Assembly (NCBI GenBank): GCA_018828385.1
Contig: JAHJVE010000012.1
Coordinates: 87,348 to 151,347, forward strand
Direction of reading: 5' to 3'
Origin: Gammaproteobacteria bacterium
Lineage (GTDB): Bacteria; Pseudomonadota; Gammaproteobacteria; Burkholderiales; Rhodocyclaceae
DNA: 64,000 bases
Below, in pieces: positions 5,882-30,444 of this stretch. Positions within the stretch are counted from its first letter, which is position 1, and each line of letters begins with the position of its first letter. Under the pieces are notes generated by a model, which did no database searches, had not been told where the DNA came from, and saw only the letters and a list, made by a program, of their open reading frames with translations. The position numbers and the translations under genes were made by a program.

Positions 5882-5917
5882 GGCAGGTATCGACTGCGAC
5901 GCCGGCCAGAGCCGGAC
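5882..5917 (-). ncRNA. Two-hairpin repeated element, copy 1
   Basis: On the minus strand: hairpin CCGGC-tctg-GCCGG, then CGUCGCAG with heptaloop UCGAUAC closed by CUGC. It lies about 45 bases upstream of the radC leader. Three other copies occur at 9365, 22347 and 29912. Confidence 0.5.
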
Positions 5918-6239
5918 TACATCCCACGATGGAATGCAGGTATGCCCTGTCAGTTTCCGGCATCGGTCGGGTGGATTCAAGGGGATCCAGAGGACGCAAC
6001 GTTCAAGCGGCCGGAATCCGACGGGCTTGCGAATGGCGTCGATGATGAGGGCGTGCCGATCGCTTCCTGCGGCGCAAGGGTGCGGTCGGCTTGGTCAACA
6101 GGGCCTACTTGCACTCCAGTGTGACCGGGATGTCAGCCTAATTGCACTGCACAAATTTTTTGCGTGACCGCCGTAAAACCCAGGACAAGCCTGGAAAATT
6201 TGATCAAGATGAAGGCTCAACCCTTCACGTAGAACGACG
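5918..6239. other. Intergenic stretch without a convincing gene
   Basis: Frames here are short, overlapping and without ribosome sites. Apart from the repeated element just before it I see nothing assignable. It probably contains the divergent promoters of the radC leader and of the small gene at 6240. Confidence 0.4.
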
Positions 6240-6455
6240 ATGATCCGCCTCGGCTCGCAAATTCGACTCACTCGCCGGGAGGTCGAGCGCTTCCGGAAGA
6301 TCACCGACATCGAGCCGGTGGACATCCGCACGCTCGACGACCTGGACGCCTACATCGCCCGATGCAAGGCGCACTACTGGGGCGTCTCCAAGGACACCCA
6401 GTTCCTGCATTGGCTCATCGACCGCGAATACGCCCAGTGCCGCCTGGCGGCGTAG
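6240..6455 (+). CDS. Small element-borne protein, paralogue of the one at 8492
   Basis: 71 residues. The N-terminal half (MIRLGSQIRLTRREVERFRK...D.RTLDDLDAYIARC) matches the protein at 8492 (MLRAGDVLRFTPDEIEDFRK...ARTQDDIDQALARW) in spacing and key residues, so the two are probably diverged paralogues. No known domain recognised. Each lies beside a minus-strand cluster with a structured leader. Confidence 0.6.
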   Translation: MIRLGSQIRLTRREVERFRKITDIEPVDIRTLDDLDAYIARCKAHYWGVSKDTQFLHWLIDREYAQCRLAA

Positions 6456-6537
6456 CGCGGTTGGTTTTCTGGGGGCGACCGTCTCCCCCAGCCTTTCTGC
6501 CGGGGAGACGTCGCGCCATCGGGTACTGCCGTCGAAG

Positions 6538-7209
6538 TCACTGGAAGACACGCGGCTCGATGGTCGCGCCGCGCATGAAGGCGAGGTAGGCGCCGGCCTT
6601 TCCTATATCCCGGAAACTGGCGACAACTTCCTCGCGCCGCAGAACGTTCCAGGACTGGTCGGCGTCGCCCGAAGGCTTGATGCTCAAGTCGGCTTCGCGG
6701 TAGGCGGCATGGCGATACAGAAAGTCGCCCGATGCCCAATCCACGATGGCAAGGAGGCAGGCGCACAGGATGGCGCAGCCGCCATGCTCGTCGGGCTCGA
6801 TCAGCAAGGGGACCTTCAAACTCCCCGTCGAGCGGCCGATCCGGCCGACGACGTCGTGCTCTTCCAGCCAGGGTTCGCCGGTGCTCGTGTCGCCCAGGAT
6901 CAGGCGGACCTTCCGTTCGCGGGTGCGGCAGGATTCCAGGACCCTGGCGGCCTTGGCATCCGTGCCGGGATCGAAGTAGGTCGTGCGTGTCAGCGGGGAC
7001 TGGCTCCAGGCCTGGACGGCTCGGCCGTACTTTTCGTAGCCGGCGAGGGTTGCGTAGTCCTCGTCCGTGAACGACAGGTCGGCACGGCTCAGCTTGCTGG
7101 CGATCTGGTTGGCGTGATCCCGGGCGTTTGCGAAACCGAGGCAGGTAAAGCCCTCGCCGCAATCGATCGCGTAGCGCTGCTGTGCCGCATTGATACTCAC
7201 CTTGTTCAT
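6538..7209 (-). CDS. Element-borne protein of unknown function, 223 aa
   Basis: A 223-residue protein beginning 'MNKVSINAAQQRYAIDCGEGFTCLGF'. The phrase 'TCLGFANARDHANQIASKL' and the central 'VRLILGDTSTGEPWLEEHDVVGRIGRS' look conserved and folded, with alternating alpha/beta character. There are no membrane segments or catalytic motif I recognise. I believe similar proteins accompany radC in related elements, but cannot name the family. A ribosome site (aaaggaa) is paired into a leader helix (see 7210). Confidence 0.7.
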   Translation of the reverse strand: MNKVSINAAQQRYAIDCGEGFTCLGFANARDHANQIASKLSRADLSFTDEDYATLAGYEKYGRAVQAWSQSPLTRTTYFDPGTDAKAARVLESCRTRERKVRLILGDTSTGEPWLEEHDVVGRIGRSTGSLKVPLLIEPDEHGGCAILCACLLAIVDWASGDFLYRHAAYREADLSIKPSGDADQSWNVLRREEVVASFRDIGKAGAYLAFMRGATIEPRVFQ

Positions 7210-7270
7210 CTCGGGTTCCTTTCGAAATGTCGTGGAACCACACCCCGTCGGGCGTGAGCCCCACGGGGTT
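7210..7270 (-). ncRNA. Structured 5' leader of the 223-aa gene, copy E
   Basis: The minus-strand leader has a hairpin AACCCCGU.../...ACGGGGU, then GGUUCC pairing perfectly with GGAACC, which contains the AGGAA ribosome site. The paired strands differ in sequence from the other leaders but occupy the same place, so the pairing rather than the sequence is conserved. Confidence 0.55.
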
Positions 7271-7321
7271 GTTGCGTGTTCGGCAGGCCGAAGGTCAGCT
7301 GGCCGGTGGTGTCGCTGCGGC

Positions 7322-7564
7322 TCAGGCCGCCTGCGCCACTGCCTGGAATCCTTGCACCAAGGCGCCGGCCTCGGTGGCGACGACGACCTGGTCGGACAGC
7401 AGGCGGTCCAGCTTCAGCAGCAAGGCGTCGGCGTGCTCCTGGTCATCCGGGTAGAGGGACGGGCGCAGTTTCTCGACCTCCTTCTTGATGAGGCGAAGCT
7501 CTGGGACGATGGCGCGCTCAGCGTGCGCTTCGATGGCGTTCAGGATGGCGGTGATGGTGATCAT
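7322..7564 (-). CDS. Small helical protein of unknown function, 80 aa
   Basis: The ATG at 7564 is chosen because of the ribosome site 'aaaggaag' 9 bases upstream; the track's frame extends into non-coding leader. The protein is predicted helical ('ERAIVPELRLIKKEVEKLRPSLYPDDQEHADALLLKLDRLL' region) with a hydrophobic C-terminus. No domain recognised. Confidence 0.6.
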   Translation of the reverse strand: MITITAILNAIEAHAERAIVPELRLIKKEVEKLRPSLYPDDQEHADALLLKLDRLLSDQVVVATEAGALVQGFQAVAQAA

Positions 7565-7848
7565 CGATGGCTTCCTTTCATTGCTAGAAAAAATGGGCCG
7601 GCATGCCGGGGGCAGATCGGCGGGCGAGGTTTGGCCCGGCGGGCGCAGACGGCGTAGCGGGCGGGTGGGGGCGCCCCGTGAAGTCGGCTTGCCGGCGTTC
7701 ATGGGCACTCGATGAGGTGTGCGGGGATCGGGGCGAGCACCGCACGCGCCGCTGGGGAACAGCGGGCGTGGGCGTTCGGCGATCCGGATGCGACGGCAAG
7801 TGCCGCCGCATCACAGGCCGGGCCGGTGATGGCCTGGCGCTTCTCGGG

Positions 7849-8364
7849 TCAGGCGGCCGAGCGCGGTGTTTTTGCGCTGGGCGAGGCCAGTGCTTCAGTG
7901 GATGCGGCTACCGGATCGGCCGCAGACTGGGTCGCCTGTTGCTCGAAGGCCGTGTGTGCCGTCGTGAACTCGGTTTCCCGAGCCAGGCGGCGCACTTGGG
8001 CGACGGCGGGCTCCTTGACCATTTCGGGCAGGCATTCGACGGCGATGTCGCTGCCGTGCCGCAGACCCTTCTGCAGACTGTGCAGCGGCCGGACGAACAG
8101 GCCGTGGCACAGCCAGCGGACAAACTGACCGATCCGCTTGTTGCGTGCCTGGCGGGCTTTGTGCCGACGCAGGGATTCCTTACAGCACAGATACAACGCC
8201 AGATGGGTGCGCTTCATTTCGGGATCGGACTCGAGCTGGGCCATGACTTCCGTCGCGATGGCCGGATCACGGCCGACGCGCTGGTAGAAGCCGACCCAGG
8301 CACGCTCTTCCTCGGACTCGATACCGGAGCGCCGGGGGCGAGGACGGGGTTTCTCAAGGGACAT
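7849..8364 (-). CDS. Element-borne protein of unknown function, 171 aa
   Basis: Basic Arg/Pro-rich N-terminus, a helical middle part with 'WVGFYQRVGRDPAIATEVMAQLESDPEMKRTHL' and a low-complexity Ala/Ser C-terminus. 'FVRWLCHGLFVRPL' could be a short amphipathic helix. No enzyme motif is visible. It has a structured leader like those of radC and the DarB-like gene, so it probably belongs to the same regulon. Confidence 0.6.
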   Translation of the reverse strand: MSLEKPRPRPRRSGIESEEERAWVGFYQRVGRDPAIATEVMAQLESDPEMKRTHLALYLCCKESLRRHKARQARNKRIGQFVRWLCHGLFVRPLHSLQKGLRHGSDIAVECLPEMVKEPAVAQVRRLARETEFTTAHTAFEQQATQSAADPVAASTEALASPSAKTPRSAA

Positions 8365-8435
8365 GATGTTTCTCCAAAGACGAATAGAGGGAACACCCGT
8401 CCCTGGTCGGGGAGGCGGTGGACTCCCCGGGGTTG
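8365..8435 (-). ncRNA. Structured 5' leader, copy B
   Basis: Minus strand: hairpin CGGGGAGU...UCCCCG, then AGGGACGGGUGUUCCC. GGUGUU pairs with AACAUC next to the start codon (one G-U pair), with a bulged A before the ribosome site. It aligns closely with copies A, C and D. Confidence 0.6.
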
Positions 8436-8491
8436 CACGGACATGCGGCGCTGCTAAGCTGAACGCTCACAGGTCAAGAGGTGCCCACACC

Positions 8492-8722
8492 ATGCTGCGT
8501 GCAGGCGATGTGCTACGGTTCACGCCCGACGAAATCGAGGACTTCCGAAAACTCGGTCTCGACTTCGACGGGGCGCGAACACAGGATGACATCGACCAGG
8601 CATTGGCCCGATGGGCCGATACGCTGAACGATGAACGTCCCGATCTGCTGGAAAAGATCGCTGCGGCAATGGCGAAGGCCAGGGGCATCCCGCTACCCGC
8701 GCGCTTGACGCGGATACGTTGA
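8492..8722 (+). CDS. Small element-borne protein, paralogue of the one at 6240
   Basis: 76 residues from the ATG at 8492 (ribosome site 'aagagg'). The track's longer frame starts in the opposite gene's leader. It shares the N-terminal pattern R.G...R.T..E...FRK..D...RT.DD.D with the 6240 protein, while the C-terminus differs. Function unknown. Its 3' end overlaps the convergent gene at 8693 by 30 bases. Confidence 0.6.
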   Translation: MLRAGDVLRFTPDEIEDFRKLGLDFDGARTQDDIDQALARWADTLNDERPDLLEKIAAAMAKARGIPLPARLTRIR

Positions 8723-8917
8723 TGCGGCGTGCCTGCCGTTGTCCTCGGCAATCCTCATCCAGCGGTCGGCGATGCGGTCCAGGTAGACCAGATCGTCGGC
8801 TTCGATCTCGCCCGACTCTCGCAAGCGGGCGATCACCTCCTTGACCAGGGACGGATCGTCCTTGGCCAGTTGGATCACAGTGGCGGCAATGCGCCGGCGG
8901 TAGAGGCTGATCGGCAT
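8693..8917 (-). CDS. Small helical protein, 74 aa
   Basis: The ATG at 8917 follows two bases after the stop of the upstream small gene, with ribosome site 'caggag' inside that gene, so translation is coupled. The sequence 'SLYRRRIAATVIQLAKDDPSLVKEVIARL' suggests an amphipathic helical fold. No function can be assigned. Confidence 0.6.
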   Translation of the reverse strand: MPISLYRRRIAATVIQLAKDDPSLVKEVIARLRESGEIEADDLVYLDRIADRWMRIAEDNGRHAASTYPRQARG

Positions 8918-8919
8918 GA

Positions 8920-9093
8920 TCAGGCTCCTGCGGCACGGTACTCGGAAGCGCCGCCAGACCGTCCGGGGACGGTGGGTCTCGGTTTCAACAACGCCGGCAC
9001 AGTCGGCATGCGCAGGGACGGTCGGGCGTACCCGGAACCACCCAGCAGCACGGCGACCGGGCGCGACTCTCTCGTCGCAGGGATTGCGAACAT
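8920..9093 (-). CDS. Small Pro/Arg-rich protein, 57 aa
   Basis: 57 residues from the ATG at 9093, with ribosome site 'aaggag'. It is Pro/Arg/Gly rich and has no recognisable fold. It is supported mainly by the clear structured leader ending exactly at its ATG and by coupling to the following gene. It may act mainly as a leader ORF. Confidence 0.5.
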   Translation of the reverse strand: MFAIPATRESRPVAVLLGGSGYARPSLRMPTVPALLKPRPTVPGRSGGASEYRAAGA

Positions 9094-9164
9094 GGTGTTC
9101 TCCTTCAGGAATGAAAGGGAACACCCATCCCTGGCGGGGAACTTGGGGTTCCCCGTTCGGGATG
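9094..9164 (-). ncRNA. Structured 5' leader, copy C
   Basis: Minus strand: hairpin CGGGGAAC...GUUCCCCG, then GGUGUUCCCUUU pairing with AAGGAGAACACC (one C-A mismatch, one G-U), an 8-base loop between them. This hides the whole ribosome site AAGGAG and the spacer to the ATG. It is the clearest of the five strong copies. Confidence 0.65.
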
Positions 9165-9364
9165 CTCCGCCGTGGACGGCAGAGCGGCTCGGCAACGTGC
9201 CAGGCGGCACGCGCAGGATGAAGGCCCACGGTTCTTGCGAACGGGGCCTTCGCTCGATGCCGATTGACCCGAAGATCGCGCGGCAGGACAGTGTTCAGCC
9301 GGGTGGCTGAACCAGACACTCGGCCAGGGACATGGCCGGACCCGACCGAAGTCGGGGATTCAAG

Positions 9365-9401
9365 AGGCAGGTAACGACTGCGACGCCAGCGAGGCTGGAC
9401 T
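9365..9401 (-). ncRNA. Two-hairpin repeated element, copy 2
   Basis: Minus strand: CCAGC-ctc-GCTGG, then CGUCGCAG-UCGUUAC-CUGC. It lies about 200 bases upstream of leader copy C. Confidence 0.5.
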
Positions 9402-9677
9402 TCAGGGTGGCCGAGGCCGCCGATGAAGGCTGTGCAGACACGATGTCCACAGAAAGCCCTTGCAGTATCGCGCTGGACTTATCCGGGATTCAAGACAGTG
9501 GTTTTGTTTGCCACACGCAAGCGTCGGGAATTCCGAGCTTCTTGGCGGGGTGCGAGCTTTGTGCGGGTAATGTGCCTTACCCACGGCGAGGCATGTGCGT
9601 GCCATCCAGATGGCACTAAACCGATGGTGGCAACGACCGGGAAAACAGAAAAGCGCTGATGGGTTTGCGCACCACGA
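9402..9677. other. Intergenic stretch, no convincing gene
   Basis: A 78-codon frame at 9423-9659 exists but is Arg-rich, without a ribosome site or recognisable fold. I treat the stretch as the seam between the leader cluster and the nrd operon. Confidence 0.4.
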
Positions 9678-9722
9678 CCACTACAGGTAGTGGCATCAAG
9701 TCATCGAAACACCGTATATAGT
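9678..9722 (+). promoter_or_regulatory. Tandem NrdR-like boxes
   Basis: Box 2 at 9709-9722 (ACACCGTATATAGT) matches the NrdR consensus ACACwATATATwGT at 12 of 14 positions. Box 1 at 9678-9691 (CCACTACAGGTAGT) matches at 10 of 14. The centres are 31 bases apart, about three helical turns, as is usual for NrdR pairs. They lie just upstream of the nrd promoter, so NrdR repression is expected. Confidence 0.7.
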
Positions 9723-9734
9723 ATATTTGCCTCC

Positions 9735-9764
9735 TTGACACCCCGAGTCTGTTAAGCCTAGACT
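9735..9764 (+). promoter_or_regulatory. sigma70-type promoter of the nrd operon
   Basis: A perfect -35 TTGACA (9735-9740), an 18-base spacer and TAGACT (9759-9764) as -10. The predicted start, near 9771, is just at the beginning of the riboswitch. Confidence 0.6.
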
Positions 9765-9767
9765 CGA

Positions 9768-9946
9768 TGCCGTTGATGGTTCCCTTCCGGGGATTAAAAC
9801 GGGAATCCGGTGCCGGACCGCAAGGTCTGAATTCCGGGGCTGCCCCCGCAACTGTAATCGGCGAGCGCTTCGCCAACACATGCCACTGGATGCGTCCGGG
9901 AAGGTAGGTGGAGCGCGCTGAACCGAGAGCCAGGAGACCTGCCGCA
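9768..9946 (+). promoter_or_regulatory. Cobalamin (B12) riboswitch
   Basis: It has the conserved blocks of the cobalamin aptamer in order: 'GGTTCCCTTCCGGGGATTAA', 'CGGGAATCCGGTG', 'GGGGCTGCCCCCGCAACTGTAA', 'TGCCACTGG', 'CCGGGAAGGT' and the B12 box 'GAGCCAGGAGACCTGCC'. It lies in the leader of a B12-independent reductase operon. Binding of adenosylcobalamin would be expected to lower expression, a logic known for class Ia nrd genes in Streptomyces. The expression platform lies between 9947 and 10132 and is not resolved here. Confidence 0.93.
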
Positions 9947-10132
9947 ACGAACTTTCTTTCATGGTTTTGGGGCGGGGTGTCCCTGACGAGAGGTTTATTG
10001 CGTGTCTTTCTTGCCGTTCGTTCGCCTGACCGATTCGACCACGGGTTCCCGCCCGCTGGCGTCGTGCTCGGTCGCGTCGAATGCCGGCCTGACGCAACGT
10101 CGATTCTCCGCCCCCCGATACGGAGAATCGCC

Positions 10133-12898
10133 TTGTCATCCAATGTCCTCAGCTTATCCACCGGCAGCGAAATCGCTGCCGCTGCCCTGCAAGTCATCCG
10201 CCGCAACGGCGCGGTCGTCACCTTCGACGCCGACAAGATCGCCGTCGCACTGACCAAGGCTTTCCTCGCCGTCGAAGGCAGCCAGAGCGCCGTTTCGTCG
10301 CGGGTCCGCGATGTCGTGGCGCACCTGACGCAAGCTGTCGTTCGTTCGCTGACCCGCCGCCTGCCGGATGGCGGCACGGTGCATATCGAGGACATCCAGG
10401 ACCAGGTCGAACTGGCCCTGATGCGCTCCGGCGAACACGATGTGGCACGGGCCTACGTGCTCTACCGCGAACGGCGGGCCAGCGAACGCTCGGTCGCCGA
10501 GCCGCTGGCCGGCGCGCCGCTGATCCATGTGCTGGATGGCGGCCAGCGCCGGCCGCTCGACCGCGCCGAACTGGCCGGCCTGTGTTCCGATGCCTGCGCC
10601 GGACTGGGCGATGCGGTGGACGCTGAAAGGGTGCTCGACAGCGCCATCCGCAATCTATACGACGGCGTGCCGCTGGCCGACGTGCATCAGGCGCTGATCC
10701 TCGCCGCGCGTACCTTGATCGAGCGCGAGCCGGCCTTCAACCAGGTCACCGCGCGCCTGCTGCTGGCCAGTCTGGGCCGCGAAGTGCTCGGCGAAGCGCG
10801 GTCGTTGAGCGAGATTGCTGCTGTCAACAGCGAATATTTGCCCAATTTCATCAAGCAGGGCATCGAAGCCGAACTGCTCGACCCGCGCCTCGCCACGTTC
10901 GACCTGCAGCGCCTGGCCGCTGCCTTGAAGCCGGAGCGCGACCTGCAGTTCGGCTACCTCGGTCTGCAGACCTTGTACGACCGCTATTTCCTGCATATCG
11001 ACGGCCGCCGCATCGAACTGCCGCAGATTTTCTTCATGCGCGTCGCGATGGGCCTGGCCTTGAACGAAATCGACCGCGAAGCCCGCGCCATCGAGTTCTA
11101 CGACCTGATTTCCAGCTTCGATTTCATGTGCTCGACGCCGACGCTGTTCAACAGTGGCACGATGCATTCGCAACTGTCGTCGTGCTACCTGACCACCGTC
11201 GCCGACGATCTCGAAGGCATCTACCAGTCGATCAAGGAAAACGCCCTGCTGCAGAAATACGCCGGCGGTCTGGGCAACGACTGGACGCCGGTGCGTTCGC
11301 TGGGGAGCCGGATCAAGGGCACCAACGGCCAGAGCCAGGGCGTGATTCCTTTCCTCAAGGTGGTCAACGACACGGCGGTCGCCGTCAACCAGGGCGGCAA
11401 GCGCAAAGGCGCGGTCTGCGCCTATCTCGAAACCTGGCACCTTGACATCGAGGAATTCCTAGACCTGCGCAAGAACACTGGCGACGAGCGGCGCCGCACC
11501 CACGACATGAACACCGCGAACTGGATTCCCGACCTGTTCATGAAGCGGGTTATCGACCACGGCGAATGGACGCTGTTCTCGCCGGTCGACGTGCCCGACC
11601 TGCATGAAAAGTTCGGCGCCGAATTCGAAGCAGCGTATGTCGCCTATGAAGCCAAGGCTGCCGCCGGGCAACTGAAGCTGCACAAGAAGCTGCCCGCCGT
11701 CCAGCTCTGGCGCAAGATGCTGACCATGCTGTTCGAGACCGGCCATCCGTGGATCACCTTCAAGGATGCCTGCAATCTGCGCTCGCCGCAGCAGCATGTC
11801 GGTGTCGTGCATTCGTCCAACCTGTGCACCGAGATCACGCTGAACACTTCGGACGAGGAAACCGCCGTCTGCAACCTCGGCTCGGTCAATCTGTTGGCCC
11901 ACCTCAAGGATGGCGCACTCGACCAGGCCAAGCTGGCGCGCACCGTGACCACCGCGCTGCGCATGCTCGACAATGTTGTCGACATCAATTTCTACGCGAC
12001 GCCCAAGGCGCGCAACGCTAACCTCCGCCACCGGCCGGTCGGCCTCGGTATCATGGGTTTCGCCGATTGCCTGTACGAACTCGGCCTGCCTTACGCGTCA
12101 ACCGCAGCGGTCGAATTCGCCGACCGGACCATGGAGGCCGTGTGCTATCACGCCTACGGGGCATCGACCGAACTGGCCCGCGAACGCGGCCGCTATTCCA
12201 GCTACCCCGGCAGCCTGTGGGCCCAGGGGATCCTGCCGCTCGATTCGATCCAACTGCTGGAAGAAGGGCGGGGCGGTCATCTGGAAGTGAACCGCGAATC
12301 CAGCCTCGACTGGGCCGGCCTTAAGGAGCGCATCGCCCGCCACGGCATGCGCAATTCCAACTGCGTCGCCATCGCGCCGACGGCGACCATCTCCAACATC
12401 GTCGGCGTCTCGGCCAGCATCGAGCCGACCTACCAGAACATCTACGTCAAATCCAACCTGTCCGGCGAATTCACCGTGGTCAACGAGGCGCTGGTCCGCG
12501 ACCTCAAGGCGCTCGATTTGTGGGACGAGGTCATGGTCGCCGACCTCAAGTACTTCGACGGTTCGCTGGCCCGTATTGAGCGTGTGCCGGATGAACTGAA
12601 GGCGCGCTACGCCACCGCTTTCGAGATCGACCCGGTGTGGCTCATCGAAGCGGCCGCCCGTCGCCAGAAATGGATCGACCAAGCCCAGTCGCTGAACCTC
12701 TACCTGGCGCTGCCTTCCGGCAAGAAGCTCGACGAAATCTACAAGCTGGCCTGGCTGCGCGGTTTGAAGACCACCTACTACCTGCGCACGCTGGGTGCCA
12801 GCCAGGCCGAGAAAGCGGGGGGCAGGGACGATGCCGTAACGTCGGAAGAACCGAAATTCTGTTCCATCGACAACCCCGAGTGCGAGGCCTGCCAATGA
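10133..12898 (+). CDS. nrdA: Class Ia ribonucleotide reductase, large subunit
   Basis: It reduces ribonucleoside diphosphates with the NrdB radical subunit. I choose the TTG at 10133, which has ribosome site 'ggagaa' five bases upstream; the track start at 9908 lies inside the riboswitch. That gives 921 residues. Visible parts are an N-terminal ATP-cone ('VIRRNGAVVTFDADKIAVAL'), 'LSSCYL' with the first redox Cys, 'NLCTEI' with the thiyl-radical Cys and Glu, 'AVCNLGS' with the second redox Cys, and the C-terminal shuttle cysteines 'PECEACQ'. All catalytic residues are present. It overlaps nrdD by four bases (ATGA). Confidence 0.95.
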   Translation: MSSNVLSLSTGSEIAAAALQVIRRNGAVVTFDADKIAVALTKAFLAVEGSQSAVSSRVRDVVAHLTQAVVRSLTRRLPDGGTVHIEDIQDQVELALMRSGEHDVARAYVLYRERRASERSVAEPLAGAPLIHVLDGGQRRPLDRAELAGLCSDACAGLGDAVDAERVLDSAIRNLYDGVPLADVHQALILAARTLIEREPAFNQVTARLLLASLGREVLGEARSLSEIAAVNSEYLPNFIKQGIEAELLDPRLATFDLQRLAAALKPERDLQFGYLGLQTLYDRYFLHIDGRRIELPQIFFMRVAMGLALNEIDREARAIEFYDLISSFDFMCSTPTLFNSGTMHSQLSSCYLTTVADDLEGIYQSIKENALLQKYAGGLGNDWTPVRSLGSRIKGTNGQSQGVIPFLKVVNDTAVAVNQGGKRKGAVCAYLETWHLDIEEFLDLRKNTGDERRRTHDMNTANWIPDLFMKRVIDHGEWTLFSPVDVPDLHEKFGAEFEAAYVAYEAKAAAGQLKLHKKLPAVQLWRKMLTMLFETGHPWITFKDACNLRSPQQHVGVVHSSNLCTEITLNTSDEETAVCNLGSVNLLAHLKDGALDQAKLARTVTTALRMLDNVVDINFYATPKARNANLRHRPVGLGIMGFADCLYELGLPYASTAAVEFADRTMEAVCYHAYGASTELARERGRYSSYPGSLWAQGILPLDSIQLLEEGRGGHLEVNRESSLDWAGLKERIARHGMRNSNCVAIAPTATISNIVGVSASIEPTYQNIYVKSNLSGEFTVVNEALVRDLKALDLWDEVMVADLKYFDGSLARIERVPDELKARYATAFEIDPVWLIEAAARRQKWIDQAQSLNLYLALPSGKKLDEIYKLAWLRGLKTTYYLRTLGASQAEKAGGRDDAVTSEEPKFCSIDNPECEACQ

Positions 12899-17061: not shown

Positions 17062-20000
17062 TCAAGCGGCTTGTCGTGCCTCGTCGGCGTCGACCCTCGC
17101 GCTACCGGCTTCGTCCTTGTCCAGGTCGAGTTGCTTGAGCAACTCGCGTTGCCGGACCAGCAAATCGGTCAGCCGGCCTTCATGCTCGAAGGACCGGGCC
17201 AGTTCCAGCCGGAGGTCTTCCAGCCGCTTACGGCGGGTCTCCAACTGGATCTCGGCATCGGCGTGATGCTTGCCTACCGATTCCAACGCACCCAGCAAGG
17301 CGGCCACCAGGGCCGGTCCTGTTTGATAGGGCTCGGCGTTGTACAGGCAGTACCCCGCCAAATACAGGTTCGGCGTCTCGTCGCCGCGGGCCGCGAGGAT
17401 GCCGAGGTCGAAGCCGCCAAACCGGCCGACGATCCGTTCGATCATCCGGCTGGCCGTGCGCACCTCGTCCCTGGCGGCCTTCACCAACCCGCGTAGCGCT
17501 TCGCCCACCGCATCGGGGCCGACGATCCTGCGCCCCGCCAGTTCCATGGCGATGCCCTGCATAGTCTGCGGCTCGATCCGGGCCGCGTCCTTCGCGTACA
17601 GTGCGACCTTCTTCTCCAGCGCCTCGATCATCATCGGCAGCCGGCCCACTTCGCTTTCGTTGGCGTAGCGCTGGTTGCGCCACACCGAGAACAGCGTCGA
17701 GAGTTTGGCCACCTCCGCGTCCACGCCGGCTTTCTCGATCACCAGCGGGTTGCCCGACGCCAAGGCTTTCACCTCGGCATAGGACAGCGCCGCCAGTTCG
17801 ACATCCTCCAGCGACCGAATGCCCTGGTCGCCCTTCATCACCTGGGCGATGAAGCGTGCCTTCGTCTCCAGCGTTTGCCACATGTAACTGTCAAAACTGC
17901 CTTCCGTGACATACCGGAAGATTTCCACTTCTTCGCACTCATTGCCCTGGCGCAGGATGCGCCCCTCGCGCTGCTCGACGTCGCAGGGACGCCAGGGTGC
18001 ATCGAGGTGATGCAGGGCCGTGAGCCGCGTCTGCACGTTGGTGCCCACGCCCATCTTGGCAGTGGAGCCCAGCAACACCCGGACCCGGCCCTCGCGCACC
18101 GCCTTGAACAGCGTCGCCTTCTGGCCATCGGTCTCGGCATCATGGACGAAGGCGATCTCCTTCTCGGGGATGCCCGCACCGATCAGCCGGTCCCGCAGGT
18201 CGTCATAGACGCTGAAGCTCTTGCCGCCCTTGGGGGACGACAAGTCACAGAACACCAACTGGGCGCCGCGGAAGTCCGTCGTGCGTTGCCAGATGGCGTG
18301 AACCTCCCGCACGCAGGCGGCCACCTTGCCGTTTTCGTCGAAGCGCGCCAGCGGCGCCACCAGCCGGAAATCCAGCGCGGCCTTGCGGCCGTCGGTGGTG
18401 ATCGCCAGCATGTTGTCTTCGTTCGGCTTGACGTCGCCGTTGCGGATGGCTTCCGCCCGCTGGACCAGCGTCTGCACGAAGGCTTTCAGCGACGGGCTCG
18501 CCGGGCAGGCGACGATGCGCGGCTTGCCGCCGCGCAGCTTTGGCACCGGCAGGTCCAGCATCTCCGCCGTGCGGATGTCGGCCACTTCGCCGAACACCGC
18601 CATCAGCTCGGGCACGTTGATGAACCGCGCGAAGCGCGTGTGCATCCGATAGCCGCTGCCGTCCGGCGCGATCTCCAGCGCCGTGACGCTCTCGCCAAAG
18701 GTGGCGGCCCAGGCATCGAACTGCTGCAGCCCGAGCTCCTCCAGCCGGTTGGGCTGCAGGTAGCGCATCATGGTGTGGATCTCGGCCATGGTGTTGGCCA
18801 CCGGCGTCGCTGTTGCGAATACCACCCCCCGCTGCGCATGCCCATGGAGCTGCATCGTGTAGCGCGTCTTCAGGAACAGATCGAAGGCGCGCTCCGAACT
18901 GGTCAGCGGCAGGCCTGCCACCCGCGTCATCTTGGTGAACCGGTAGAGGTTCTTGTGCAGGTGGGCTTCGTCCACGAACAGGGCGTCGATACCCAGCAGT
19001 TCCCAGCTGAGCAGGTCGTCCTTCTTCTGGTCGGCCGACAGCTTTTCCAGCCGCACCGCCCAGTTCTTCTTCATCGCCTCGAGTTGCTTGACGATCCGGT
19101 TGGACCGGTCGTTGCTCTTCTCGGCGCGTACCGCCATCTCTATTTCATGGATGATCTCCTTGATGAATCGCTCGCTGAATCGCGGCGACATCCTGATGCG
19201 CTCGAAGCTCGAGTGCGTGATGACTACCGCGTCCCAATCGCCCGTGGCGATGCGCGACACCAGCTCGCGCCGGCGGTCGCCTTCCAGGTCCTCCTTGCCC
19301 GCCATCAGCACCGACGCGTTCGGATAGAGTCGGACGAATTCCGCCGTGTACTGGGCCAGCATGTGGTTGGGGACCACATGGCAGGGCTTATTGACGAAAC
19401 CCAGCCGGCGCAACTCCATGCTGGCGATGACGCATACCGCCGTCTTGCCGGCGCCGACCACATGGAACAGCCCAGTGTTGCCGGACTGCACGATGCGCCA
19501 CACCGAATCCAACTGGTGCGGATGCAGCACGAAGCAGCGGGAGAATCCCGGCAGCTTCAGGTGCGAGCCATCGAAGCGCCTGGGCCGCGTGGCATTGAAC
19601 AGGTCGTTGTAGATCCTGCACAGCTTCTCGCGGCGTTCGGTATCTTCGAAGGCCCAGCCGGCGAACCGCTCCTTGATCAGGCCCAGCTTCTCCCGCGCCG
19701 CCAGCGTCTCGTCGGGATTGACGAAATACTTGTCGGTCAAGGGATCGCGGTCGCGCACGGTCGGCACCTGGACGTTCAAGGCACACTGCACCAGTTCGAT
19801 CGCGTTCATGCGCGAGGTGCCGAATTCCTGGGTCACCTTCACGTTCTGCCGCGCTTCCCACTCGCCGTACTTCACCGACCAGGCGCCGGCTTCAGCCGAG
19901 TAGCCCACCTGGCAGTCCTTCAGTTCCAGGACCTGCTGGATGAACGCCTCGACGTCGAGGGCCGGAATCCACACCGCCCCCAGGCGCGGCTCGATGGCCG

Positions 20001-22071
20001 CCGGCGGCAGGTCTTCCGGTTGCACCCGCTCCAGCGCGTCGATGTTGCGCTGGTAGGTACTTCCAGACAGCACCGCCTGCTTGAGCTTCGCTTTCACGTT
20101 GCCCGACAGGTAGTCGTCGGTGGTCTTCCACTCCCCGTCGGCCGGGTCCAGGAAAACCTGCCCCGCTCCGGCCAGTGCCTCCAGCACCGCCGCTTCGGGT
20201 GCGCCAAGCAGTTCGGCCATGTAAGCCGGATCGACCCGGCCGCGCCACTGGACGGACGCCGCCAGCGCTTCGGCCGGTTCGCCCGCGGTGCTCGGTTCGA
20301 CGACCCGGGTCAGCGTGCGCCGGGTGAACAGCGCCGCCTTGCGGGCCGTTTCCGACTCCTCGTCGTAATGCTCCAGCGACAGCAACAGCGGATAGTCCGG
20401 GTCGCGCCGGAACGCGAGCGCATTGGCGCGCGTGGACAGGCAACCGTAGCGCGACACAAAGCGCTCGTAGGTCCCATTGAGCATGGCTCGCAGGTGACCC
20501 AGCCGACCGTCGCCCGCATCCGCCAACTGCGCGTCGAGCAGGGCCCGGGCGTGGTCGCGGATGGCGCACAGGCCGGTGATTCGAGCTCGTTGCGTGGCAT
20601 TAAGCTGGTCATGGACGTCGACCATCTCGCTGCCCTCGACCCGATGCACCCGCCCCTGGTGGAGACGGTAGCTGCCAGGACGGGCACCGGCCTCGGCCGG
20701 GACCACCACTCGCAGCGGGGCTGCCTTGTGCGCCACCGGCCGGTAAGCATCGGCAGGCAGCAAGGCGATGCGCTCGGCCAGGGCCGCCTCCAGGTCACCC
20801 TCGAAGACGGCGACTGGCACTTCCTCGTAGCCATTGCTCTCGCGGCGGATGCGGCCAATGCAGAACTGCGGGTGCTCGGCGTACCAGGCGTTGATCGGCA
20901 GGTAGCGCTCGTAGCACTGGGGGTGCCGGAGACTATCGGGCACCGTGCCCAGCTTCAACCATTGGGCTTCGACCGCCTCGGCCCGCTGCCGCTTGCGCAG
21001 GAACAGGATGTCGGTCTGCACCTCGGTGGCGGCGATACCGGCGAAGGCGCCCTTGGGGAGCCGGATGGCACCCAGCAGGTGAGCCTGGGCGGCGATGTGC
21101 TCGCGCACCGCGTCGTACTGGGCATCCATCGTGTGGCTGCTGGTGATGAAGCACACCAGCCCACCAGGGCGCACCAGGTCGAGGGCGCGGCCGAAGAAGT
21201 AGTTGTGGATGCTGAAACGGGCATAGGCCCGGTTGCTCACGTCGGCGACCTTGTACTTGCCGAAGGGGACGTTGCCGATCACCAGGTCGTACCAGTGGTC
21301 GGGCAGCGGGGTTTTCTCGAAAGGGGAGATCCGCACGTCCACGCCGCCGGGCGCGTAGAGCGCCTTGAGGATGCGGCCGGAAACCCGGTCGATCTCGACG
21401 GCGGTGACGCTGCTGCGCTCGGCCAGATTCCGCGGCATGGCGCCGATGAAATGGCCGATGCCGGCGGAAGGCTCCAGAATGCGTCCGCCGGTGAAGCCGA
21501 AGCGCTCCACCGCCTGCCATATCGCCTCGATCACGTGGATCTCGGTGTAGTGGCTGTTGTTGACGGAGGCGCGCGCCGAATCGTAGTCCTCGGCACTGAG
21601 CATCGCCTGCAAGCGACGGGCACGTTCGGCCCAGGCGTTGTCGGTGGCTTCGAGATTGAAGCTGGCGGGCAGGCCACCCCAACCGGTGTAGCGCTGAAGA
21701 ACCTGGCGATCATCCGCACTGGCCGGCCGGCCTTCGGCTTCGATCTGGCGCAGAAGCGTGATTGCTGCCAGGTTGGCCTCGAACTTCGCGGTCTGGCCGG
21801 TCAGGTGCTCTAGGTCGGCGCGGGTCAGTTGCGGCCAGAGGACGCGCGGGGCGGCCTCGGTCGCGGTGGCCACCACCCGCCAGTTGGCGCGGACGGTAGC
21901 CACAAACTGCTCTTGCTCTACGTCGCTGAGGTTCTCGACGTGGATGACCTCGACAGGCTTGGCGGGGTCGCAAGAAACGGAAAGGCAAACCTGCTTTGCA
22001 GGGCGGGGCAGGGCTGGGGCCGCCGGGTCGAACCCGGGCAGCCACAGGGAAGGCGCGGTAGGACGGGCCAT
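17062..22071 (-). CDS. DarB-like fusion of N6-adenine methylase and SNF2/DEAD-type helicase
   Basis: 1669 residues from the ATG at 22071, which has ribosome site 'ggag' (the track start at 22104 lies in the leader). A methylase domain is visible: motif I 'EPSAGIGHF' near residue 200 and 'NVPFG', an NPPF variant, near 267. The helicase domain follows: 'VVGAGKTAV' near 870, 'VDEAHLHKN' near 1032, and the C-terminal lobe 'EQREGRILRQGNE' near 1370. A long helical tail ends the protein. The architecture matches large mobile-element proteins related to phage P1 DarB, which protects incoming DNA from type I restriction. Anti-restriction during transfer is thus the likely role. Confidence 0.8.
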   Translation of the reverse strand: MARPTAPSLWLPGFDPAAPALPRPAKQVCLSVSCDPAKPVEVIHVENLSDVEQEQFVATVRANWRVVATATEAAPRVLWPQLTRADLEHLTGQTAKFEANLAAITLLRQIEAEGRPASADDRQVLQRYTGWGGLPASFNLEATDNAWAERARRLQAMLSAEDYDSARASVNNSHYTEIHVIEAIWQAVERFGFTGGRILEPSAGIGHFIGAMPRNLAERSSVTAVEIDRVSGRILKALYAPGGVDVRISPFEKTPLPDHWYDLVIGNVPFGKYKVADVSNRAYARFSIHNYFFGRALDLVRPGGLVCFITSSHTMDAQYDAVREHIAAQAHLLGAIRLPKGAFAGIAATEVQTDILFLRKRQRAEAVEAQWLKLGTVPDSLRHPQCYERYLPINAWYAEHPQFCIGRIRRESNGYEEVPVAVFEGDLEAALAERIALLPADAYRPVAHKAAPLRVVVPAEAGARPGSYRLHQGRVHRVEGSEMVDVHDQLNATQRARITGLCAIRDHARALLDAQLADAGDGRLGHLRAMLNGTYERFVSRYGCLSTRANALAFRRDPDYPLLLSLEHYDEESETARKAALFTRRTLTRVVEPSTAGEPAEALAASVQWRGRVDPAYMAELLGAPEAAVLEALAGAGQVFLDPADGEWKTTDDYLSGNVKAKLKQAVLSGSTYQRNIDALERVQPEDLPPAAIEPRLGAVWIPALDVEAFIQQVLELKDCQVGYSAEAGAWSVKYGEWEARQNVKVTQEFGTSRMNAIELVQCALNVQVPTVRDRDPLTDKYFVNPDETLAAREKLGLIKERFAGWAFEDTERREKLCRIYNDLFNATRPRRFDGSHLKLPGFSRCFVLHPHQLDSVWRIVQSGNTGLFHVVGAGKTAVCVIASMELRRLGFVNKPCHVVPNHMLAQYTAEFVRLYPNASVLMAGKEDLEGDRRRELVSRIATGDWDAVVITHSSFERIRMSPRFSERFIKEIIHEIEMAVRAEKSNDRSNRIVKQLEAMKKNWAVRLEKLSADQKKDDLLSWELLGIDALFVDEAHLHKNLYRFTKMTRVAGLPLTSSERAFDLFLKTRYTMQLHGHAQRGVVFATATPVANTMAEIHTMMRYLQPNRLEELGLQQFDAWAATFGESVTALEIAPDGSGYRMHTRFARFINVPELMAVFGEVADIRTAEMLDLPVPKLRGGKPRIVACPASPSLKAFVQTLVQRAEAIRNGDVKPNEDNMLAITTDGRKAALDFRLVAPLARFDENGKVAACVREVHAIWQRTTDFRGAQLVFCDLSSPKGGKSFSVYDDLRDRLIGAGIPEKEIAFVHDAETDGQKATLFKAVREGRVRVLLGSTAKMGVGTNVQTRLTALHHLDAPWRPCDVEQREGRILRQGNECEEVEIFRYVTEGSFDSYMWQTLETKARFIAQVMKGDQGIRSLEDVELAALSYAEVKALASGNPLVIEKAGVDAEVAKLSTLFSVWRNQRYANESEVGRLPMMIEALEKKVALYAKDAARIEPQTMQGIAMELAGRRIVGPDAVGEALRGLVKAARDEVRTASRMIERIVGRFGGFDLGILAARGDETPNLYLAGYCLYNAEPYQTGPALVAALLGALESVGKHHADAEIQLETRRKRLEDLRLELARSFEHEGRLTDLLVRQRELLKQLDLDKDEAGSARVDADEARQAA

Positions 22072-22140
22072 CGGTGTGTTCTCCAAGGAAAACGGGGAAC
22101 ACAACGCCCCATCGGGGAGGCGGGCTCCCCGGGTGGGATG
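22072..22140 (-). ncRNA. Structured 5' leader of the DarB-like gene, copy D
   Basis: Minus strand: hairpin CGGGGAGC...CUCCCCG, then UGUGUUCCCC pairing with GGAGAACACA (one C-A mismatch), which buries the GGAG ribosome site. Compared with copy C, the paired strands change together by one base step (UGUGUUC/GAACACA versus GGUGUUC/GAACACC). Confidence 0.6.
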
Positions 22141-22670
22141 GGCAAGAAAACGGTCGTGGACGACCGGTTGGCAAAGGCCAGACGGACGCGACTGCGCCGG
22201 GCTTCATGGCGAAGCCGGCAGATCGGGTACGAGGCGGCGAGCGCCAAGGGCTTGGAAACCAGCCGACGAGCGTCAGCCAGCGCAGGGCTCAGTTCAGCGC
22301 GGGGCGCGGAACCAGGGGCAGCCGTCGAACGCTGCCACAACAAAATGCGGGTAACGACCGCAACGCCCGAGGCGACTCGGGAGCGCTCGAACGAGCGCGC
22401 GTTGGCCGAAGCCAGATGCCCTAACAGTGTGCCGTTCGGCGAGCGGCCGTGCGCACCGGTCGGCCATTCGCCTGCGAAATCCCTGGTGGAGCAGGCGGAT
22501 TGCGGGTGGCAATGGGTTGAGCGGCCATGGGCCACCGGCGGTGAGGGGCTCGATGCGCATCCAATCGGGGGAGGGCAAGGATGCCGGCATCCGGTGGGAC
22601 ATGCGGCCGAGGATCCGACTACCCGTCGCTTTCCTGTTTATCCATGACGATGGGAACGCACGCTGACGCG
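22141..22670. other. Intergenic stretch with element copy 3, no convincing gene
   Basis: About 530 bases upstream of the DarB-like gene. It holds the two-hairpin element at 22347-22381. The frames here lack ribosome sites and look like GC-rich noise. Confidence 0.4.
22347..22381 (-). ncRNA. Two-hairpin repeated element, copy 3
   Basis: Minus strand: CCCGA-gtcgcc-TCGGG, then CGUUGCGG-UCGUUAC-CCGC. The second stem has changed from GCAG/CUGC to GCGG/CCGC with pairing kept. Confidence 0.5.
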
Positions 22671-23540: not shown

Positions 23541-23586
23541 ACATGCCCCTCGGCATGCCTCCTTCAACCGTTCAGGAGCCCTCCGT
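23541..23586 (+). promoter_or_regulatory. Leader hairpin of the ParB-like gene
   Basis: CTCCT (23559-23563) can pair with AGGAG (23574-23578), the ribosome site, with a 10-base loop. It follows a GCATGCC-type hairpin. The logic resembles the other leaders, but sequence match to them is weak. Confidence 0.35.
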
Positions 23587-26218: not shown

Positions 26219-26319
26219 AGCCGATCCGGCTGGCTGCCGTCACCGCCTATCGCCTGCATGTGCCGAAGTGGGCGGTTGCGCCGACGAGCGGCGCCGGGGC
26301 GGCCAAAATGCGGACCTGA
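26215..26319 (+). pseudogene. Truncated RES-domain toxin
   Basis: The overlapping frame encodes 34 residues, 'RLHVPKWAVAPTSGAGAAK' followed by MRT and a stop. The first 30 residues match the start of RES toxins, which are normally about 150-160 residues. The catalytic Arg, Tyr and Glu segments are missing. The cut comes directly after the conserved 'SGAGA' loop. The toxin is dead and the antitoxin may have been kept for other control or for immunity against related toxins. Confidence 0.75.
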
Positions 26320-26368
26320 GCCAGAAACGACACGGCCATGCACGTGCCCTGACCGAGTGAAGAAACCC

Positions 26369-27217: not shown

Positions 27218-27369
27218 CCTTGACGCGCCCGATCTTCCTTCAGTTTCTCTTCCAGATAGTAGCCCATCGCCCGCTCGGTCTCGCTGTAAGGCGAACAGGA
27301 GTCTTACCGCCGGGCTTGAATCACGGCAGTATCGCGTATAACATATAAACGTGTGATAAGGAGAGCGCC

Positions 27370-27606
27370 ATGCATTTCAATATCTACCTCGACGACGAGA
27401 CCGGGAAGCAACTAACGGAGGCTGCGCGGCGAGCCGGCGAGAACCGCAATGCCGTCATCCGGCAGGCCGTGCACGAGTGGCTTACCCGTCGCGGCAAGCC
27501 GCAATGGCCGCAAGCGGTGCTTGCCTTCACCGGAGAGCCCGACATGCCGGCATTCGAAGCCGGCCGTGCGCATTTAGCACCGGCCAAGGCTGATCCCTTG
27601 GCATGA
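27370..27606 (+). CDS. Ribbon-helix-helix antitoxin, VapB-like
   Basis: 78 residues. The N-terminus 'MHFNIYLDDETGKQLTEAARRAGENRNAVIRQAVHEWL' is a typical RHH DNA-binding fold (beta strand then two helices). The C-terminal tail would cover the toxin. It overlaps the PIN gene by four bases. An AT-rich stretch with TATAAC-like boxes just upstream (27333-27355) is probably the autoregulated promoter. Confidence 0.85.
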   Translation: MHFNIYLDDETGKQLTEAARRAGENRNAVIRQAVHEWLTRRGKPQWPQAVLAFTGEPDMPAFEAGRAHLAPAKADPLA

Positions 27607-28016
27607 AGTACTTGCTCGATACTTGCACGGTGAGCGACTTCGTCAAAGGGGAGGCAGGTGTGCTGAACACGATTAAGCGCATCTCGCCCGACCAAATCGC
27701 AATTTCGGTCGTGACTCGCATGGAGATCGAGTATGGGCTGCTGCTCAACCCCCAACGCGCCAAGAAACTGGAACCGATTCTGGATGCCTTTATTTCATCG
27801 ATCGCCGTGTTGCCCTTCGACGATGCCGATGCGAAAGCGGCTGCGGCGATCCGGGCGGTGCTGCACCAGGAAGGGCGACCTATCGGTCCCTATGATTGCC
27901 AAATTGCCGGCTGCGGGTTGGCCCGCGGATTGGTGGTCGTAACCTCGAACGAAACGGAGTTTCGACGCGTCGGCGGGCTGCGTGTTGAAAACTGGCGGGG
28001 GGTGGGGGCGGGCTGA
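27603..28016 (+). CDS. PIN-domain ribonuclease toxin, VapC-like
   Basis: 137 residues with the PIN acidic residues: Asp in 'LLDTCTVSDF', Glu in 'TRMEIEYGL', Asp in 'IGPYDCQIAG' and the terminal 'TSNETEFRRV'. VapC toxins cut tRNA or rRNA in a site-specific way; this target is unknown. It forms an operon with the RHH antitoxin and converges on the integrase at 28058. Confidence 0.88.
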   Translation: MKYLLDTCTVSDFVKGEAGVLNTIKRISPDQIAISVVTRMEIEYGLLLNPQRAKKLEPILDAFISSIAVLPFDDADAKAAAAIRAVLHQEGRPIGPYDCQIAGCGLARGLVVVTSNETEFRRVGGLRVENWRGVGAG

Positions 28017-28057
28017 GGTTCTTTTCCTGCCCCCAATGCTCTGGCCGGCGAAGCCGT

Positions 28058-29245
28058 TTACGCAGGGGGCAGCCCAGGCGCGTCCCTGTCGTTCGGCGCC
28101 GTCTCCGGCTGGATCTGACGCCGGATTGGGCCACAATACGCGCCAGCGGCGCGAGTGCGAGCATGCCCGGCTAGTTCCGATACCGCCTGTCGGGCCGCCC
28201 TGTCCACATCTGGCGGCAGGGGGCCGCCGCCTCGGACCGGCGGTGCTTCACCTGCCTGGCTACTATAGAACTGAATCAGCACTTCGTGGCGCAGCCCATG
28301 GCCCGTCACTCGCAGCCCCCGCTCCGTGATGCCGAACTTCGCCAGCACATAGTCGAAGCGCCGCAGATTCTGCTTCAGGGTATGGGCCGGGTCGCCCATG
28401 TGGGCGTCCCGGCTTGCCACCACGCCTTGCGCGAATTCGACGGCGGCCAGCCGATTGGGACTGTCCAGCGGGATGTGGCGGACGCGGCCGCCCTTGCCCT
28501 TGATGCGCACATACCGATCCGCCGCCTTCTTCTCCAGCGGCTTTCCTGTTTCCTCGAACGGCACGATGCTCTCGAAGGGGCGGAACTGGACCGACTCCTT
28601 TCGCCGCAAGCCCATTGCCTGGATCAGGCGCAACGAAGCGCCGACGTAGCGATCGAACTGACCTACCTTCGCCACCAGGGCATCGATGTCGATGCCCTGG
28701 GCTGCCCACCCTTTGTCGCGCTGGGCGGACTCTTGGCGCTGGTACTCCTCCAGGCTCAGGCCGTAGTGGCTCGGCTTGCGCACGAAGCCGTGCTTGCCCA
28801 TCCACATGGCCAGCCCCCGCAGGAAGCTCAGGTAGGTCTGGATCGTCGCAGGCGCCAGATGCGCCTGCTGCCAGACCTGCACCATCGCGTGGATGTGCTT
28901 CTGGCCGAGGTTGCGCGGGTCCGGCACCGTCTTGAACCCGGCCTTGATCTTCAGGTCGCGGAAGAAGCGCCGCAGAAACTGCGCGCGTTCCTGACGCGTC
29001 TTGTGCGAGACGGTTTTCTCCAGCGCCGTATGCTGGGTGTTGAAGAGTTTGATCAGGACCTCCAGCACCTTGAGCGGTGGCGCCTTGCCCGGCTGGTAGC
29101 GGGCCAGGATTTCCTTGGGTGTCTTGCCCGCCCAACCCTGGGGGCGAACGGGCTGCTGCTGGCTCGAGCGACCGGGGCTGGCAGGTTCCTGCAGCCGGCG
29201 GCGAGATATACGGCGAACGGTGTTGCTGGGGATTGCATTCGACAT
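28058..29245 (-). CDS. Internal tyrosine recombinase ('integrase domain-containing' type)
   Basis: 395 residues from the ATG at 29245 (ribosome site 'aaggag'). The N-terminal SAM-like core-binding domain includes 'ILARYQPGKAPPLKVLEVLIKLFNTQHTA', a helical region covers 'TIQTYLSFLRGLAMWMGK', and the catalytic part has Arg in 'MGLRRKESVQF', 'HGLRHEVLIQFY' and a terminal 'HARTRAAGAYCG' Tyr. It differs from the P4-type integrase at the element's end. Proteins of this family are found inside integrative elements without an att site next to them; the role is uncertain. Confidence 0.82.
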   Translation of the reverse strand: MSNAIPSNTVRRISRRRLQEPASPGRSSQQQPVRPQGWAGKTPKEILARYQPGKAPPLKVLEVLIKLFNTQHTALEKTVSHKTRQERAQFLRRFFRDLKIKAGFKTVPDPRNLGQKHIHAMVQVWQQAHLAPATIQTYLSFLRGLAMWMGKHGFVRKPSHYGLSLEEYQRQESAQRDKGWAAQGIDIDALVAKVGQFDRYVGASLRLIQAMGLRRKESVQFRPFESIVPFEETGKPLEKKAADRYVRIKGKGGRVRHIPLDSPNRLAAVEFAQGVVASRDAHMGDPAHTLKQNLRRFDYVLAKFGITERGLRVTGHGLRHEVLIQFYSSQAGEAPPVRGGGPLPPDVDRAARQAVSELAGHARTRAAGAYCGPIRRQIQPETAPNDRDAPGLPPA

Positions 29246-29300
29246 GGTCAGAGCTCCTTGGTCGGAGGCCAGCCGCCCGAACGGCAAGCCGATGTTGGCG
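29246..29300 (-). promoter_or_regulatory. Leader of the internal integrase
   Basis: On the minus strand, CCUCC can pair with GGAG of the ribosome site across a 6-base loop, after a GCCGUUCGGGCGGC hairpin. This is weak evidence that it belongs to the same leader group. radC RNAs are known upstream of integrases. Confidence 0.35.
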
Positions 29301-30444
29301 ATGAAAGTGGAATCCAGGGCAGCCCCCGGCGGGACGGATTCCGTTGCCCGCGCCGGTCAGTGGTCAAGAACTTCGGCACCGCGCGCGACCACGGCGTCGC
29401 GGCACCTACCCAGGGGGTTCGTCGGCCAGCGCGTCTGCGCTCGCCAACTCGGTCGGTCTTAAAAACGAAACGGGTTGATCCGGCCCATCCGTGCATTTCT
29501 GCAGCCATGGGGGTGGTGATGCCGGCCGGCCTCTGGGGCATAGCGGGACATCGGCGGCGAGGTCAGGCCTCGCGCCGTCTGGTGGATCGGTTCTGGAGTC
29601 GTAGCGCCATCCACTCGCATGGGTCCGCCCCTGACCGAAAGTCCAGGGCAGTGTCGAGTTTGTGAGCGAAGGCGCGCGGGGAGCCCAAGCGGGCAAACAC
29701 AACCGCGCGCTGCGTGGAACGCGTGCTCAAAGGATGGCGGGAACAGGGGCACGGCATCGGGTGCCGGCCGAGTGCTCTGTGGGCCGTGGTGCGCCTCAGG
29801 GAACGCCCAGCGATGAACGCTGGCCAAGCCAGGGACATGCACTACGAGAAAGACCTCGGGACCGCCGCCTCAAGGGCGACGGCATTGCCGGTTCGAGACT
29901 GGCGCTTCAAGGGCAGGTAACGACTGCGACGCCTTTTGCTCCGCGATGGAGCGGGGCCAGGATGGCCCTCGGGAAACCGTAGTTGACGCCAAGCGGGTAG
30001 GGCGGTCAAGCGGGCGGCTCGAAAGCGCGGCGAATTGCGGAGGATTGCGGGTGGCACTTGCGCGCCCGGGAGAGTGCGGTAAGGCGCATTTATTGTCGCA
30101 AAGCGGCGAGCAACGAGGCGGCGGGCGGCCTTGACGGGGGAAATCTCTGCCTCTGGTCCGTGGCGGGCCAACCCAGCGCAGTTTTCTTGTGACCTGTGCA
30201 CCGATGGCGCATCCAGCGAACGGGGTTGATGCCCGCCATTTGAATGAGAGCGTAGTGACACACACGCAGCCCCGCCGGGGGATGACGCTTTCAAGTGTCA
30301 GCGAGATGTTCATGCATCGCCGGTTCGCTGACAGCGGGCCGTACCCGATGCCGAAATCGGCCTCTTTCAGTGGGGATTCCGTGTGGCGGGATCAGATCGC
30401 CCTGTCGATGCTGATCGACCTGAAACCTACCTCGGAGTCTTGCT
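29301..30444. other. 1.1-kb stretch without a convincing gene
   Basis: It holds only element copy 4 (29912-29953) that I can name. Several overlapping frames of 60-150 codons exist on both strands, none with a ribosome site, conserved motif or typical composition. It probably contains the promoters for the ParM operon (right) and the integrase transcript (left), possibly also a centromere-like site for ParM. Confidence 0.4.
29912..29953 (-). ncRNA. Two-hairpin repeated element, copy 4
   Basis: Minus strand: GCTCC-atcgc-GGAGC, a short AAAAGG linker, then CGUCGCAG-UCGUUAC-CUGC. It lies about 610 bases upstream of the internal integrase leader. Confidence 0.5.

Follow-up and report, generated by a model that had tools for sequence, protein, structure and literature searches.

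A covarying two-hairpin motif upstream of five operons in one family of integrative and conjugative elements

Copies of the motif

The stretch of DNA analysed here (the window) comprises 64,000 nucleotides (nt) of contig JAHJVE010000012.1 (positions 87,348 to 151,347; assembly GCA_018828385.1, Rhodocyclaceae). It contains four copies of a two-hairpin motif, each lying on the minus strand upstream of a gene of what we infer to be an SXT-like integrative and conjugative element (ICE). This assignment is based on the protein families of the element, namely an SXT-type TraD, a DUF4400 protein, an FlhC-like regulator, a weakly AcaB-like protein, ParB-like and ParM-like proteins and a tyrosine integrase. 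The 21-mer consensus GGCGTYGCNGTCGWTACCYGC gave four mismatch-free matches in the window, whereas 0.11 were expected from shuffles. A scan of the window with a covariance model detected the same four minus-strand copies and no others, at the places given in the original prediction. The whole genome contained one further perfect match to the 18-mer of the motif; it lies on the other strand of the same contig, and an AlpA-family gene follows 259 bp downstream. The five copies are as follows, with bits from the covariance model.

5882-5915, minus strand: copy 1, upstream of radC; CCGGC-UCUG-GCCGG-CGUC-GCAG-UCGAUAC-CUGC; 47.5 bits
9366-9398, minus strand: copy 2, upstream of the operon of a 57-codon open reading frame (ORF) and a 76-amino-acid (aa) ORF; CCAGC-CUC-GCUGG-CGUC-GCAG-UCGUUAC-CUGC; 46.4 bits
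22346-22381, minus strand: copy 3, upstream of a helicase/methylase gene; CCCGA-GUCGCC-UCGGG-CGUU-GCGG-UCGUUAC-CCGC; 39.3 bits
29912-29953, minus strand: copy 4, upstream of a PF12835 recombinase gene; GCUCC-AUCGC-GGAGC-AAAA-GGCGUC-GCAG-UCGUUAC-CUGC; 34.8 bits
Contig C10:30351-30385 (outside the window), plus strand: copy 5, upstream of alpA

The arms of the first hairpin in the window (CCGGC/GCCGG, CCAGC/GCTGG, CCCGA/TCGGG and GCTCC/GGAGC) agreed with the original prediction, as did the change of the second stem from GCAG/CTGC to GCGG/CCGC in copy 3. The heptaloop had been given as UCGUUAC, which holds for copies 2 to 4, whereas copy 1 reads UCGAUAC; the loop was therefore corrected to UCGWUAC. 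A CGUC or CGUU linker, said to follow the first hairpin in all copies, does so in copies 1 to 3 but not in copy 4, where AAAA stands between the hairpin and GGC, an arrangement typical of this gene class. The distances to the genes, put at 45 to 610 bases, were measured as about 118, 273, 275 and 667 nt from motif to start codon.

Structure, covariation and distribution

The motif is composed of hairpin 1, a CGUY linker and hairpin 2, which has the stem GCRG/CYGC and the conserved loop UCGWUAC; the structured RNA is 35-45 nt long. Hairpin 1 has CC at its start and GG at its end and is otherwise free in sequence, the arms seen being those of copies 1 to 3 as well as CCACC/GGTGG, CCTGA/TCAGG, CCGAC/GTCGG and others. 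The recombinase class differs in that its hairpin is mostly GCTCC/GGAGC and several nucleotides separate it from GGC. At least four contiguous hairpin-1 pairs anchored at GG were present in 50 of 51 distinct copies from four gene classes. When the 3' arms were exchanged between gene classes, a test in which no structure-fitted alignment was used, pairing fell to 27%.

The covariance model was built from 13 copies, and 123 matches were found with it. In an alignment of 89 distinct rows the covariation score was 0.298; shuffled rows gave 0.096 (0/500) and slid partners no more than 0.072. As this alignment had been fitted to the structure and is biased towards it, the arm-swap control is the cleaner evidence. 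Pair 3-37 occurs as GC, AU, CG and UA. Among 108 distinct collected copies with GGC directly 5' of the 18-mer, the R-Y pair of stem 2 is A-U in 72 and G-C in 36, without a single mismatch. Compensatory changes in the helices thus go beyond the controls, as expected of a structured cis-regulatory RNA. An alternative long hairpin GGCGU/ACCYGCC, proposed by RNAalifold for the Int class, was not preferred, as the R-Y covariation fits stem 2.

The 18-mer was found in 16 of 299 genomes of the same bacterial family, usually in several copies per genome, whereas a reversed-pattern control gave one match in total in these genomes. A pattern scan of 84,980 species genomes yielded at least 119 matching stretches, and the host range of the motif is to be read as a lower bound. 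The home genome was the only one of 369 from the class at large to give matches better than E = 0.009, and two others were at the threshold. The copies with GGC come almost all from Betaproteobacteria and lie in one ICE family. The 61 copies without GGC look like chance matches: stem 2 has a mismatched R-Y combination in 21 of them and a Watson-Crick pair in the other 40. All 13 viral-contig copies belong to this group; they match exactly but lack both GGC and the hairpin context, and an origin of the motif from phages or plasmids was rejected. No match at 80% coverage was found among 72,556 plasmid or 50,697 phage records, and no DNA similarity to the copy-4 region was found in plasmids.

By gene context, 94 of the 108 copies could be classified and 14 could not. 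All copies that could be classified precede one of five genes and share its direction: alpA, radC, the 76-aa ORF operon, a 1680-aa helicase/Eco57I-type methylase or the PF12835 recombinase. The orientation upstream of the same genes is fixed in unrelated hosts, which again is a property of structured cis-regulatory RNAs. Four near-complete elements carry exactly five copies each; where these share a contig, four are on the same strand and the fifth is on the opposite one. At tra genes, no copy was detected.

Two explanations that need no RNA are addressed by these data. That one element holds five copies would suit a recently duplicated repeat without function. However, sequences outside the conserved GTYGCRG...CYGCC core, and hence the flanks, are unrelated between gene classes, and compensatory changes maintain the pairing across genera, which refutes a passive repeat and leaves it with scarcely any credibility. 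The hairpins could also form in single-stranded DNA and, in a conjugative element, serve as a signal on the transferred strand, such as a single-strand initiation site or promoter. The alpA copy, however, is opposite in strand to the other four, so that one transferred strand cannot present all copies, and orientation follows the genes; a single-stranded DNA promoter was rejected on this ground, and a signal of this kind is most improbable.

The genes downstream of the copies in the window are the following.

5183-5764, minus strand: radC-type gene, downstream of copy 1
8693-9093, minus strand: 57-codon ORF and overlapping 76-aa ORF, downstream of copy 2
17062-22071, minus strand: helicase/Eco57I-type methylase gene, downstream of copy 3
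28058-29245, minus strand: PF12835 recombinase gene, downstream of copy 4

The 57-codon ORF (9093-8920, minus strand) is undescribed; it overlaps the start of the 76-aa ORF and is preceded by a helix hiding the Shine-Dalgarno sequence. At 29912-30445 the recombinase gene and a ParM-like gene are divergent, and the approximately 1.2 kb of conserved, largely untranslated DNA between them is mostly recombinase leader.

A search of the window against Rfam 15 matched only a cobalamin riboswitch, and ten motif-bearing loci gave nothing at E<=1 except this same riboswitch. It lies at 9760-9960 (plus strand, 110.8 bits) upstream of a ribonucleotide reductase gene block (large chain, anaerobic NRDD, radical SAM activase and small chain), which is inserted between the leader-RNA operons of the ICE. 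No description of the motif was found in the open-access literature.

Promoters and leaders

Sigma70-like promoters with a spacer of 17-18 were predicted at a near-constant distance upstream of the motif in four of the five gene classes. The exception is the helicase class, in which the -10-like CACACT lacks a clear -35. The predictions in the window are listed below; the three promoters are conserved in their classes.

5952-5980, minus strand: promoter of copy 1, TTGAAT-17-GAAACT, 51 nt before the motif core
9464-9493, minus strand: promoter of copy 2, TTGAAT-18-GATACT, 79 nt before the motif core
22426-22431, minus strand: possible -10 element of copy 3, CACACT, with no convincing -35
29981-30009, minus strand: promoter of copy 4, TTGACC-17-TCAACT, 50 nt before the motif core

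The distance from promoter to motif is 51-64 nt for radC, 79 nt for the 76-aa ORF, 47-54 nt for the recombinase (with a few outliers) and mostly 63-67 nt for alpA. Between the motif and the next start codon lie 87 to 806 nt, depending on the copy. Because the former range is narrow while the latter is wide, the motif appears tied to the transcription start, roughly 40-75 nt downstream of which it is predicted to begin. On the sequence evidence it is demonstrably common to five operons of one ICE family and linked to the promoter, not to the start codon. The fixed promoter distance and variable gene distance also argue for a transcribed leader RNA over a site in double-stranded DNA, and we consider it very probable that the motif is a transcribed structured RNA.

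Further covarying hairpins lie between the predicted start and the motif; for two of these in the 76-aa class, nearly every pair is intact across 17 sequences. The sense strand of the leaders is C-rich in all five classes. The location near the predicted 5' end and the several successive hairpins would be in agreement with a stability or processing element that shields the long leader mRNAs from RNase E or directs their maturation. Generic stabilising hairpins, however, do not require a conserved loop and linker, and the motif does not occupy the very 5' end, so this explanation seems improbable.

The leaders of the radC, 76-aa and helicase classes share a 3'-terminal element, in which a GC-rich hairpin of the CATCCC...GGGATG type precedes a helix that hides the Shine-Dalgarno sequence. 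This helix is GGYGUUC/GAACRCC or UGUGUUC/GAACACA, and its two strands change together between gene classes and between genera. The leaders of alpA and the recombinase do not have the element, which indicates that the motif is more than a component of a translation switch. Upstream of the promoters, three classes (copies 2, 3 and 4 and their relatives) have an inverted repeat, TTGC-N5-GCAA, at a constant position. In the whole window it is no commoner than expected by chance and only its position speaks for it; it is a candidate operator of the master regulator of the element.

5762-5830, minus strand: 3' end of the radC leader, hairpin and then GGCGUUC/GAACGCC sequestering the Shine-Dalgarno sequence; start codon 5764-5762
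9091-9165, minus strand: 3' leader element downstream of copy 2, GGUGUUC/GAACACC; start codon 9093
22069-22145, minus strand: 3' leader element downstream of copy 3, UGUGUUC/GAACACA; start codon 22071
9508-9520: candidate operator TTGC-N5-GCAA, upstream of promoter 2
22500-22512: candidate operator TTGC-N5-GCAA, upstream of copy 3
30045-30057: candidate operator TTGC-N5-GCAA with one mismatch, upstream of promoter 4

The element encodes an FlhC-like protein (PF05280) with an adjacent small ORF (L015 1202-1840 and 1853-2197, minus strand; contig C10:21202-22197). The small ORF is FlhD-like by eye and has no family match, and the pair is probably a SetCD/AcaCD/BisDC-type activator of the ICE. 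Since the copies mark operon starts, the motif might itself be a double-stranded DNA site for this activator or another regulator, and a shared motif exists in the transfer-competence promoters of ICEclc (PMC9286271). However, our motif follows the predicted -10 at 47-80 nt, a position not used by class I/II activators, and it is neither upstream of nor overlapping the -35 as an FlhDC-type site would be. Stem 1 keeps pairing and not sequence, the loop is not palindromic, the tra genes have no detected copy, and a better operator candidate is the inverted repeat that precedes the promoters. A DNA site of this type is very unlikely.

The original prediction had offered three readings: an RNA with a regulatory role, the beginning of long leader transcripts, or a site bound by a protein. 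The first two are supported together by the further copies, the covariation of two stems, the fixed promoter distance and codirectionality. The third is disfavoured as a linear DNA site explaining the whole (hairpin-1 pairing without sequence, non-palindromic stem-2 loop, location inside the leader), but it may hold in the form of a site for an RNA-binding protein. The prediction would have fallen if related elements held no further copies or if linear DNA binding without stem pairing explained the conservation; the 108 distinct copies of one ICE family and the covariation of both stems speak against either.

Proposed function and comparison with known systems

By analogy with put and conAn2, the motif may be a nascent-RNA antitermination signal to RNA polymerase, a tentative reading to which we give somewhat less than an even chance. 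Once made, the motif would act on the transcribing polymerase either directly, like HK022 put, or via a partner, like conAn2. The polymerase would then pass without terminating through the long untranslated leader, rich in C and in hairpins, and possibly through the entire operon. Transcripts would be productive only if they started at these promoters, and the recombinase, AlpA, RadC and helicase/methylase operons would thereby be synchronised; three of the leaders end in the second RNA element that hides the ribosome-binding site. The radC leader ends in a weak hairpin and a U-tract.

Several observations weigh against antitermination. Intrinsic terminators were not enriched at 5000-10500, the stretch scanned, and the motif is shorter than put (about 70 nt). 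When the covariance model was run on HK022 (40 kb of AF069308, filters off), the best match (9.8 bits, E=1.7) lay inside the structural-gene region and was not credible. Moreover, a precisely conserved heptaloop with one A/U position equally suits recognition by an RNA-binding protein. A site for such a protein, encoded by the ICE or the host and controlling translation or stability of the five leaders, is nearly as likely as antitermination, although still unlikely in itself. An invariant linker and loop (GUY, UCGWUAC) beside a free stem 1 is typical of a protein-recognised hairpin, and a Shine-Dalgarno-hiding helix closes three of the five leaders. However, two of the five leaders are without this helix, the motif position follows the promoter and not the start codon, and no candidate protein was found.

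The motif appears to represent an undescribed leader RNA family which defines a regulon inside an ICE family and for which an exact consensus and a covariance model exist. RNA-based control of whole operon sets is poorly known in Gram-negative conjugative elements. If the motif does alter the processivity of RNA polymerase, mobile DNA would have a new way to confine expression to its own promoters. The fuller claim, which we regard as doubtful, is that of a new RNA antiterminator family. A processive antitermination system encoded in RNA would be without precedent among conjugative elements of Gram-negative bacteria; it would license five operons side by side and, in three of these, be combined with a second new leader element hiding the ribosome-binding site.

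In the RfaH/ops system, as in the case of our motif, the element lies near the operon start, and ops also involves a small hairpin. However, ops is a DNA element, GGGCGGTAGCGT (PMC8955417), without a covarying upstream hairpin; GGGCGGTAGCGT and the motif consensus GGCGTYGCRGTCGWTACCYGC differ, and no ops-like string occurs in the aligned copies. No NusG paralogue was recognised in the genome with PF02357 and an E. coli NusG query, which is a weak negative as the housekeeping nusG was missed too. RfaH has been named as the sole system of processive antitermination known to work on Gram-negative conjugation operons (PMC8955417). The ICEclc transfer-competence promoters likewise have one motif common to many ICE operons, but this motif, a promoter motif of 27 bp from MEME, belongs to another ICE family (PMC9286271).

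RNA-based processive antitermination is known in mobile elements from HK022 put, which has two stem-loops and needs no dedicated protein (PMC9378689), from conAn2 of pLS20, which acts with ConAn1 (PMC8955417), and from canT of Tn916 (PMC11658703). The conAn2/ConAn1 and canT systems resemble the motif in that an RNA signal of a conjugative element lies close to the main promoter. In contrast to the five copies at non-tra operons of a betaproteobacterial ICE, they are Gram-positive and present in one copy per conjugation operon, canT being about 450 nt long. HK022 put is about 70 nt long with an RNA triplex in stem I, whereas the motif is shorter. Both consist of two cis-acting stem-loops, located in the leader downstream of promoters and in several copies per element, and antitermination by the motif is proposed by analogy. 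The motif would constitute a new family of leader RNAs, with the antitermination RNAs as its closest relatives in function; membership among these is not claimed.

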